This document shows positions 1 to 17,331 of a stretch of DNA of 41,356 nt, in pieces (position 1 is the stretch's first letter; every line of letters starts with the position of its first letter). The position numbers and the translations under genes are program-made. Source of the stretch: Thermococcus sp. (lineage in GTDB: Archaea; Methanobacteriota_B; Thermococci; Thermococcales; Thermococcaceae); contig NZ_WANV01000035.1 of NCBI RefSeq assembly GCF_015521605.1, forward strand, positions 1 to 41,356, written 5' to 3'. A model generated the notes under the pieces. The model did no database searches. It had not been told where the DNA came from and worked only from the letters and a program-made list of their open reading frames with translations.

Positions 1-155
1 CCCTAGTCATTGGCTTTCTGGCATTCTGGTTAGTGCCCTACGACATAATCCTTGAGCTCAACGGCATCAGGGGTGAAGGCCTCCTGGGCGCTGGCACCTT
101 TGTCCTCTTGGCATGGAAGCTGAGGAAAATGAAAGCCGGTGAACCCAAGGTTTGA
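1..155 (+). CDS. C-terminal fragment of a membrane protein (5' end outside window)
   Basis: An open frame enters from the left edge (first full codon at position 3) and ends at the TGA at 153-155. The visible 50 residues are hydrophobic with a tryptophan- and leucine-rich segment, then a second hydrophobic stretch and a basic tail (Lys-Leu-Arg-Lys), as in the last helices of an integral membrane protein. No family can be named from so little. The stop codon lies inside a putative SurR site belonging to the hypA promoter, so the two genes are packed tightly but probably transcribed separately. Confidence 0.6.
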   Translation, partial: LVIGFLAFWLVPYDIILELNGIRGEGLLGAGTFVLLAWKLRKMKAGEPKV

Positions 156-206
156 AACCCGTTCATTTTTAAGGGAGTGCTTCTAAAACCTGATGGGGGG
201 ATTAAT
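150..206 (+). promoter_or_regulatory. hypA promoter with SurR-type site
   Basis: A perfect GTTn3AAC (150-158, GTTTGAAAC) lies about 8 bases upstream of a TATA-like box (166-173, TTTTTAAG). The expected transcription start is about 195 and the hypA ATG is at 207. GTTn3AAC is the core motif known for SurR in Pyrococcus. The extra downstream GTT at n5 is absent here, so this site is weaker than those of hypC and hypF. Confidence 0.55.
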
Positions 207-3326: not shown

Positions 3327-3409
3327 ACTTTTAGGGTTGACGGTTGAAAACCTATGGTTCTGGAAAGGCCTAAAAAAGCCCCGGTTGAATTATCCATGGG
3401 TGAAACGAA
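3327..3409. promoter_or_regulatory. Divergent mobA/hypC promoter region with one extended SurR site
   Basis: A perfect extended SurR motif (GTTn3AACn5GTT) occupies 3343-3359. On the right the hypC TATA box (3370-3377, CTAAAAAA) begins about 10 bases away. GGTGA (3399-3403) lies 6 bases before the hypC ATG. On the left, reading the reverse strand, the mobA TATA-like box (3327-3335) is about 7 bases from the site. One operator could therefore act on both promoters. In Pyrococcus, SurR sites just upstream of the TATA box are associated with activation. Confidence 0.72.
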
Positions 3410-4757: not shown

Positions 4758-4841
4758 GTTGAAAACTCCTCCCCGGTTTTTAACTTTTGGTTTTAGAAAC
4801 CTATAAAGGCTCAGATTACCAAGAAAGAACCGGTGAGAGGA
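4758..4841 (+). promoter_or_regulatory. hypF promoter with two SurR-type sites
   Basis: Two perfect GTTn3AAC elements are present. One is simple (4758-4766). The other is part of a full extended motif GTTn3AACn5GTT (4776-4792), which ends about 9 bases before the TATA box (4801-4808, CTATAAAG). The expected transcription start is near 4828. GGTGA (4832-4836) lies 5 bases before the ATG at 4842. The arrangement copies that of hypC. Confidence 0.75.
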
Positions 4842-14778: not shown

Positions 14779-16104
14779 TCAGAACTTCAGAACCCTGGCA
14801 AGAACTATGAGCGGATCCCAGACCGGAGCGAAAGGCGGTGCATAGGCAAGGTCAGTGAAGAAAACGTCTCTCGTCGTGAAGCCTGCCGTCAACATGGCGG
14901 CGGCGCTGTCTATTCTGGGCAGGATCTCGGCTCCAACCGCCTGAACACCGAGGAGCCTGTTCGTCTCGTTGTCGACGACGCCCTTCAGCCATATCTCCCT
15001 CCCGCCGGGGTAGTAGTGGGGCTTTGTCCTTGCCTTTATGAACGCTGTTCTGACGTCGTAGCCTTCCTTAACAGCCTCGGCCTCAGTCAGACCAGTCTTT
15101 CCAATCTCCAGGTCAAGGAACTTGGTTATGCTCGTTCCGAGCACTCCCGGGAAGTGAATCTCCCTCCCGGCTATGTTGCTTCCGGCGACGTAGCCCATCT
15201 TGTTGCCGGCTGGTGCAAGGGGAATCCAGACACGCCTGCCGGTGATGAGGTGCCTCGTCTCAGCGACGTCTCCGGCGGCATAGACGTTTTCAACGCTCGT
15301 CTCCATCCTCTCGTTCGTCCATATCGCGCCGGTCTCACCTATCCTCACGCCCAGTTCCCTGGCGAGTTCTGTGTTCGGCTTTATGCCCGTCGCCACGATA
15401 ACCATGTCGGCGCTGTACTCGCCGGCATCGGTGATGACCTTCTCGACCCGCCCGTCGCCCTCAAAGCGCAGTGTAAGCTCCTGGAGGCGGAGGTTGAGGT
15501 TTTCCCTCAGCTTTGCCTCGACGATATCGGTAATCTCCCTGTCGAAGGTCTTCCTCAGAACCCTCTCGCTCCTCCCGATGAGTGTAACGTTCTTGCCCCT
15601 AGCGACGAAGGCCTCTGCCATTTCAAGGGCGATGTAGCCGGTGCCTATGACAACGACGTTCTTAACATCGTGCTTCTCCATGTACTCCGTTATGGCAACG
15701 GCATCTGGGGGAAGGTCTGCAGTAAAGACGCCCTCAAGCTCGCAGCCCTCAAGCGCTGGAACCTGCGGCGAAGCACCGTTGGCGAAGACGAGGTAGTCCC
15801 ACCCGTAGGTCCGCTCTTCCTCCCCCTCACGGACTCTGACGCTTCCCTGTTCGACCTCTATGACCTCCGCCTTCATGTGGAGGTCTATGCCGCGCTTCTT
15901 GATGAAGACCTCAGGAGGATAGTGCATGAGCTTCTCCTTTGGTGAAACTCCCTCAACCACATAGGGCACGCCGCAGGGAGCATGGCTGACCCATTCTGTT
16001 GCCTCGAAGACCTTTACGTCCCATTCAGGCCTCAGGCGCTTGATTCGAGATGCAGCACTCATTCCGGCCGCTCCACCGCCTATGACAACAACCGTCTTCT
16101 TCAT
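14779..16104 (-). CDS. FAD-dependent CoA-disulfide reductase / NAD(P)H:sulfur oxidoreductase family
   Basis: A 441-residue flavoprotein of the pyridine nucleotide-disulfide reductase family: FAD site GGGAAG (9-14), single active-site cysteine C44 in [11 protein letters not shown](P)H site [11 protein letters not shown] (near 152), FAD-binding VYAAGDVAE (near 265) and a C-terminal dimerisation domain. In Pyrococcus such enzymes reduce CoA disulfide and transfer electrons to elemental sulfur or polysulfide. Annotations as NADH oxidase are common for the same family. The ATG at 16104 follows GGTGA by 5 bases; an in-frame TTG at 16116 is rejected. The doubled SurR motif over its promoter supports a sulfur role. 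Confidence 0.9.
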
Positions 16105-16164
16105 GATCATCACCAAAAAAGGTTCAAAACTTTGGGTTAAAAACCTTGGCGGGACAGAAACGGG
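16105..16164 (-). promoter_or_regulatory. Promoter with doubled SurR operator covering the TATA box
   Basis: Positions 16122-16144 contain GTTn3AACn5GTTn3AAC, two perfect palindromic SurR core sites in the known extended spacing. On the reverse strand one of them (16136-16144, GTTTTTAAC) is itself the TATA box, and transcription should start near 16115. A protein bound here would block TBP, so this is a repressing layout, unlike that of the hyp promoters. Confidence 0.78.
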
Positions 16165-17331
16165 TCATTCCTTTCTGTCCAGGAAGTACTTTCTGCCCCT
16201 AACCTCCACCATGCGGTATACCTCACCCTCCCTGAGCTCCATATTAGGCCTCTCAAGCTCGTACGTCTCGTAAGTTTTCATATCCATGAGCTGGACCTCC
16301 GCCGGGGTTATGCTAGTGACCATTGCCTCACTCCTCTCGGTCTCCACAGTATCTATGCCCTCCCGCTTCACGGTCTTCCAGTCTCGGTGCTCGCTTTCCC
16401 GGGTGGAGAGGTTCTTCAGGGAGAGGCCCTTTCCATCCACGCGTTCGACTTCATAGACGTTACCGCGCCTATCCGCCACTATGTCCCCCTTCTGAAACTT
16501 TGGAATCCTGATGCTCACGCTGGTGCGGTAGACCTCCCTACTGGTCTGCCTGTCGAGGCCGACGAGCTCGTAGGCCTCACTTATCGTTCCCCCAAAACGC
16601 TCCTTTATCGCCTGGGCAAGCTTCCTGGCGCTGGATGTCGAGCCCATATAGAAATCAAGTCCCTCCTCCTTTTCTATGGTATCCTGGATGAACCCCATTC
16701 TGTCCTTGCGCATTATTTCGTCCACTTTCTCCTCGACGAGCTTTCCTATAACCTTCCTTTCCTCTTCTGTCAGCGGCCTGCCTTCGGCGCGAACCTGGAG
16801 TATTGCCTCAAAATAACCTCCAAGGAACCTGGAACAGCGCGGACAGACTGTCTGGCGGACGTAAACGGTGGTGTGTTTAACCTCGTCATGAAGCTCGTGC
16901 TGGAGCTCGTGTATCCTTGCCTTAACACGTATCTCATACGTTATTATCGCCGGGAAGTATTCAATGTGCCAGTCAACGGGCTGGAAGGCTATCAAAGCCT
17001 TTCCAACGGGAAGTTCCTCGACCTCGTCAAGCTCTTCCGGGGAGACTATCTCAAATTCCCTCACCCTTTCATCCAGGGAATCCCCTATCACTTCAAGGAG
17101 CGCGTTTTCAGCGACTTCGAATATCAGCTCCTCAAGCTCATAGGTCTGGGGATCGACCCAGACGCCCCTTTTCTTATAGCTGCCACAGTTCTGACACAGC
17201 TCCGTGTTTACCTCCCCCTCAATCAGCAGAACGGGATTTTCCTTTCTGAAGCAGACCTGGCAGAGACCCGCTATGAGAGGACCCCCCTCACTCTCGCTTA
17301 TCCCACATCTGTAACAGAACCTCTCACTCAT
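16165..17331 (-). CDS. Archaeal NMD3-family protein
   Basis: A 388-residue protein with an N-terminal row of CxxC zinc motifs (C6/C9, C24/C27, C46/C49) and a further CPRC near 180, as in NMD3. Eukaryotic NMD3 is the 60S subunit export adaptor; archaeal relatives are thought to bind the large ribosomal subunit. The C-terminal part (about 290-388) has beta-rich SH3/OB-like segments. The start is at 17331, where GGTGA lies 5 bases upstream and a TATA box (17363-17370, reverse) 36 bases upstream. A longer frame to 17445 would run through that promoter and is rejected. Confidence 0.88.
   Translation of the reverse strand: MSERFCYRCGISESEGGPLIAGLCQVCFRKENPVLLIEGEVNTELCQNCGSYKKRGVWVDPQTYELEELIFEVAENALLEVIGDSLDERVREFEIVSPEELDEVEELPVGKALIAFQPVDWHIEYFPAIITYEIRVKARIHELQHELHDEVKHTTVYVRQTVCPRCSRFLGGYFEAILQVRAEGRPLTEEERKVIGKLVEEKVDEIMRKDRMGFIQDTIEKEEGLDFYMGSTSSARKLAQAIKERFGGTISEAYELVGLDRQTSREVYRTSVSIRIPKFQKGDIVADRRGNVYEVERVDGKGLSLKNLSTRESEHRDWKTVKREGIDTVETERSEAMVTSITPAEVQLMDMKTYETYELERPNMELREGEVYRMVEVRGRKYFLDRKE

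Follow-up and report, generated by a model that had tools for sequence, protein, structure and literature searches.

At one locus of a Thermococcus sp. genome, two copies of the motif of the regulator SurR stand five bases apart ahead of a gene for a predicted sulfur-reducing enzyme, which raises the question whether they form an operator, where on the promoter SurR would act and whether the doubling itself has any meaning. An earlier note, made from the sequence of the window, i.e., the whole stretch of 41,356 bases that was analyzed, had described the element as a doubled SurR operator over the TATA box of a sulfur/CoA-disulfide reductase gene. The framework for such a claim is in print, in sources available in excerpt: SurR activates from sites upstream of the TATA box and represses from sites downstream, and sometimes both are needed for repression (PMC12162507). 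The repression of nsr by SurR, its motif and its derepression by sulfur were likewise reported (PMC12162507, PMC10025317, PMC3407056), and excerpts of further studies support the position rule, the repression of nsr and the response to sulfur (PMC12162507, PMC10025317, PMC4463584, PMC6981617). Taken together, the analysis makes it very likely that positions 16122-16144 are the SurR operator of nsr, which would repress the gene until sulfur oxidizes SurR, and that the core of this operator is the conserved, published long SurR motif GTTn3AACn5GTT (16122-16138, plus strand; AACn5GTTn3AAC on the nsr strand).

The gene, nsr (14779-16104, minus strand), encodes a protein of 441 amino acids predicted to be a CoA-disulfide reductase/NAD(P)H sulfur oxidoreductase. 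Its product scores 597.8 bits against the CoA-disulfide reductase family TIGR03385, above the cut-off of 578.8, and is matched nearly end to end by the structures PDB 4fx9 and 3kd9, both named Coenzyme A disulfide reductase and both presumably from Pyrococcus horikoshii. Cys44 lies within the sequence APCGVPY, a CG-PY context of redox cysteines, and aligns with the same motif in 4fx9. These matches agree with the predicted identity as a sulfur/CoA-disulfide reductase that the earlier note had put forward. In the available part of PMC4463584, PF1186 is the NSR of P. furiosus and has a homologue in TON_0305, which is listed under the name NADH oxidase. Excerpts of PMC12162507, PMC10025317, PMC4463584, and PMC9431562 characterize NSR (PF1186) as a sulfur oxidoreductase that depends on CoA and whose gene is repressed by SurR. 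Because of the family matches, the passages on PF1186 and TON_0305 and the distance of the motif in T. piezophilus discussed below, the gene of the window is predicted to be the orthologue of PF1186. The earlier note had also taken the site as support for a sulfur-related function of the family; as this role was already printed for NSR in the same four sources, nothing is added to it here.

The pattern GTTn3AACn5GTTn3AAC, which is the same on either strand, occurs once in the window, at 16122-16144, with both halves exact, just as had been claimed, and in none of 100 shuffles of the window. On the nsr strand the 23-mer reads GTTTTTAACCCAAAGTTTTGAAC. The 60 bp that hold it separate the ATG of nsr at 16104 from the end of a gene of the NMD3 family (16165-17331, minus strand). 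Along the nsr strand, the promoter runs from CCAA (16149-16146), a probable part of the BRE, through the upstream half GTTTTTAAC (16144-16136), a spacer of five bases and the start-side half GTTTTGAAC (16130-16122), which ends 17 bp ahead of the ATG, to the probable ribosome-binding site GGTGAT (16109-16114) and the ATG. The statement that one half is the TATA box holds insofar as a TATA-like TTTTTAA (16143-16137) lies within the upstream half; that this run serves as the TATA box of nsr is itself deduced from the register of the relatives.

For T. kodakarensis, median distances of 23 bp for the TATA box and 33 bp for the BRE upstream of the start site are given in the accessible text of PMC4247193. 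With the TATA median, transcription of nsr would be expected to start at approximately 16114-16120, so that the operator would begin at the TATA box and reach to within a few bases of the start. The site overlaps the putative TATA box and continues downstream of it, and sequence and comparison together support its assignment as a predicted SurR operator of the repressing class. In the absence of sulfur, reduced SurR would bind 16122-16144 and thereby occupy the TATA box together with the bases right ahead of the transcription start, which would exclude TBP/TFB and polymerase from the promoter. Sulfur would oxidize the CxxC motif of SurR (C24/C27), SurR would leave the DNA and nsr would be transcribed, and the enzyme would then reduce sulfur with NAD(P)H and CoA. 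The gene family and the motif are those of the SurR-repressed nsr genes of other Thermococcales (P. furiosus PF1186, T. piezophilus A7C91_RS06865), for which repression is printed. For T. piezophilus nsr a short motif is tabulated 17 bp from the start codon, the same distance as found here (PMC8595942). A similar placement was described for the mbs promoter of T. kodakarensis, a different target gene that is likened here by its description, where the SurR motif overlaps BRE/TATA and represses (excerpt of PMC12401011 citing Hidese 2017), and a further printed precedent for overlap with a TATA box is a promoter at TK2012 from which an antisense transcript is made (excerpt of PMC4247193). Upregulation of NSR with sulfur is reported in the available passages for T. 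onnurineus (PMC4463584) and, by 2.4-fold, for Pa. pacificus (PMC6981617); on the opposing side, a deletion of Nsr is cited in the latter as having no obvious growth defect on sulfur.

The regulator is encoded in the genome (G000). The surR gene (contig C2, L062:762-1451) scores 401.9 bits against the SurR model NF047699, for which the cut-off is 250, and its product matches the PF0095 structures 2qlz and 2quf and carries the motif CTEC at residues 24-27, the positions also given for SurR of T. barophilus. The pdo gene is divergent from surR with a long SurR motif between the two, and further long motifs of this genome adjoin expected SurR targets, namely the genes for ShyB, a sulfide-dehydrogenase-like protein and thioredoxin reductase. 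This genome has a clear excess of the three-triplet long motif, with 18+16 matches (34) vs. 4+2 (6) for the control. At G000:C18:34540-34570 (L001), between the ShyB gene and a divergent gene, SurR motifs overlap, one exact double and one more long motif. Another long motif (G000:C36:111686-111702, L150) lies 14 bp ahead of the start of the thioredoxin reductase gene; thioredoxin reductase was reported to reduce SurR via Pdo in vitro (excerpts of PMC12162507 and PMC10025317), and the motif suggests a possible feedback loop. A further long motif was observed upstream of a gene of the CbiM family of metal uptake (G000:C28:19548-19564, L074), where SurR possibly connects to the nickel supply for hydrogenases.

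The nsr genes of the family allow the site to be judged by its conservation. At E <= 1e-150, 91 of 94 Thermococcaceae genomes match, and 89 upstream regions were read after G033 and G090 were dropped for a missing N-terminus; L031, L035, and L052 were dropped from the nsr rows for the same reason. The long motif AACn5GTTn3AAC (nsr strand) is present in 74/89 of these regions, by genus in 48/59, 3/3, 6/9, 11/11, 6/6, and 0/1. At its end, the TATA box is fused with the first AAC of the motif, which lies between -34 and -36 in 73 of these 74 promoters. Among the first 36 genomes it occurs in 28, while shuffled promoters yield 0.018 on average and never more than one, and it is retained whatever the upstream neighbor, i.e., in 21/26 promoters with NMD3 upstream and in 7/10 without. 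A TTTTTAA-like run is in register in 86/89 promoters (73 distinct sequences), a conservation that is by construction and carries no weight, as the register was set on the run itself; three bases upstream a conserved A is found, as a BRE would predict. Following the run, the 73 distinct promoters share C (68) and C (64), then G (63), G (68), T (64), and T (71), then A (67), A (67), and C (64), with weaker positions in between.

The same comparison bears on two simpler readings of the site. It is quite improbable that the TATA-side triplets belong to the TATA box only and that SurR in fact recognizes a single short motif, GTTCAAAAC (16122-16130): the promoter needs TTTTTAA anyway, and the motif tabulated for T. 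piezophilus nsr is a short one (PMC8595942), but the C after TTTTTAA (68/73 distinct promoters) and the G before GTT (63/73) are conserved as well. Moreover, in the four g14 genomes (G110, G114, G115, G116) the AAC has shifted away from the T-run but keeps its distance to GTT and AAC, which makes the operator separable from the TATA box. That the match arose by chance and regulates nothing is highly improbable. In favor of this reading, the number of short motifs in the window is close to that expected by chance (12 vs. 6.9 expected, a number reached by five of 100 shuffles), and 15/89 orthologues have no exact long motif in this orientation; against it stand the 28/36 genomes vs. a shuffled maximum of one, the near-fixed position of the motif in the orthologues and the same regulator and target in the excerpted literature (PMC12162507, PMC10025317). 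The same 15 promoters, seven of which deviate at one specified base in the register of the TATA-like run, also count against a SurR operator of nsr, and control of nsr may be dispensable or different in some species. In the upstream regions of G028, G088, and G087 (L156, L237, L243), neither a TATA-like run nor a SurR motif is found within 120 bp; in G028 another reading frame ends approximately 25 bp ahead of nsr, which may have joined an operon there. Two further points stand against the operator: the available part of PMC3407056 reports no antagonistic response of NSR in cadmium-treated T. gammatolerans, and the printed rule places repressing sites downstream of the TATA box while the nsr site overlaps it and runs downstream (excerpt of PMC12162507).

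The doubling has to be judged separately from the operator. The base that precedes TTTTTAAC is G in the window and mostly C, T, or A in the relatives, so that the doubled site is an ordinary long operator plus a single, lineage-restricted G which completes the second exact half. This outer G, by which the TATA-side half becomes exact, distinguishes the promoter from other SurR-repressed nsr promoters of the Thermococcales: only G000 and G096, two of the 89, carry the complete double. The doubling as a conserved design was therefore rejected, and its treatment as a designed feature is not supported. The relatives keep the three-triplet motif, and the motif in opposite orientation is found in 5/89 promoters. 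An outer GTT...AAC over the TATA box is present in 5/89, three of which have no intact downstream half compared with 12/84 of the others (Fisher p 0.032, not corrected for descent). The fourth triplet is at most a local refinement.

A true double operator, with two SurR dimers side by side at half-site centers 14 bp apart and a tighter or cooperative repression compared with a single long motif, is thus unlikely, even though both halves are exact and a second exact double of this genome adjoins the gene for hydrogenase-2 (ShyB, NF040829, 699.9 bits). A ShyB-like gene was found at 14 of 30 double-site loci examined, a partial count for which one double site per genome was taken. Also in favor of two dimers, the 60-bp nsr promoter (16105-16164) is identical at 59/60 positions between G000 and G096 (L195) vs. 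264/301 in the flanks (p 0.010). Near-identity of this kind may reflect either strong constraint or promoter exchange, and the double shared by both genomes may stem from two gains, one gain with loss or promoter exchange; a tree of NSR proteins (35 rows) scatters the operator labels and groups G096 with G012 and not with G000. Against a double operator stand its presence in two of 89 orthologues, the T-run of the TATA box, which provides most of the extra triplet, and the numbers for the four-triplet pattern in general. In this genome two sites compare with one for the reversed control, and 65 compare with 60 when summed over 37 genomes of the genus, and no genome-wide enrichment was found; by itself, the pattern is weak evidence genome-wide.

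The very likely SurR operator of nsr, with the long motif as its core, can be compared with further SurR motifs in the same window. The motif of the SurR-activated hyp/hydrogenase promoters occurs there three times. Ahead of hypA (ATG 207), a long motif (142-158, minus strand) lies upstream of a TATA-like run (166-172), and ahead of hypC (ATG 3410) a long motif (3343-3359, plus strand) lies upstream of such a run at 3371-3377. For hypF (ATG 4842), a short (4758-4766) and a long motif (4776-4792), together spanning 4758-4792 on the plus strand, precede TATAAA (4802-4807). In all 30 orthologous hypF promoters read, out of 39 matching genomes, the long motif is present and ends nine bases ahead of the TATA box. 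The contrast between nsr and hyp promoters drawn earlier thus stands: the motif is upstream of the TATA box at the hyp genes and on it at nsr.

Position also varies at a related gene. The two closest nsr paralogues of this genome differ upstream: the one on contig C17 has no short motif, and the one on C24 has GTTTAAAAC over a TATA-like run. The latter, at G000:C24:38100-39368 (L084), encodes a single-cysteine, NADH-oxidase-like protein that is 36% identical, with orthologues at L253-L269. Among 37 genomes searched, 14 of them outside the genus, 18 match at E <= 1e-120, a count that excludes another match in G006 (L270, 52%). The upstream long motif is present in 15/18 orthologous promoters and lies ten bases ahead of the TATA-like run in all 13 with a recognized run, much the same layout as at hypF. 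In G000, G012, and G007 this motif is gone and GTTTAAAAC lies over the TATA box. The three promoters resemble each other, so that the change may be one event; G010 combines the upstream motif with GTTTAAAAC and resembles an intermediate state. As a single additional base behind a TTTAAAA run is enough for it, the GTTTAAAAC match may also arise by chance. A title-level search of the literature for SurR and NADH oxidase in Thermococcales returned no title on this layout. Tentatively, SurR control may change by movement of the site relative to the TATA box, as this lineage would show twice. At nsr, the outer triplet would shift around the AACn5GTT core, being on the start side in 74/89 promoters, on the TATA side in G009 and G068, where the start side has been lost, and on both sides in G000 and G096, and the C24 paralogue would have gone from an activating to a repressing layout.

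The control of nsr in this organism is probably of a conserved and already described type, in which a sulfur-reducing enzyme is kept off by a site over the start signal of its gene. With SurR sites placed for activation at hypA, hypC, and hypF and for repression at nsr, the single window cleanly illustrates a known control and is not a discovery. The comparison of the 89 promoters yields a sharper consensus of the operator, TTTTTAACCnnAGGTTTTGAACC on the nsr strand, and shows that a definition of the operator should leave out the fourth triplet. If the site has moved at the paralogue, its expression would fall upon addition of sulfur in most species and would rise together with that of nsr in this one, and its promoters would provide natural pairs for testing how the position of the site of one archaeal regulator sets activation or repression.
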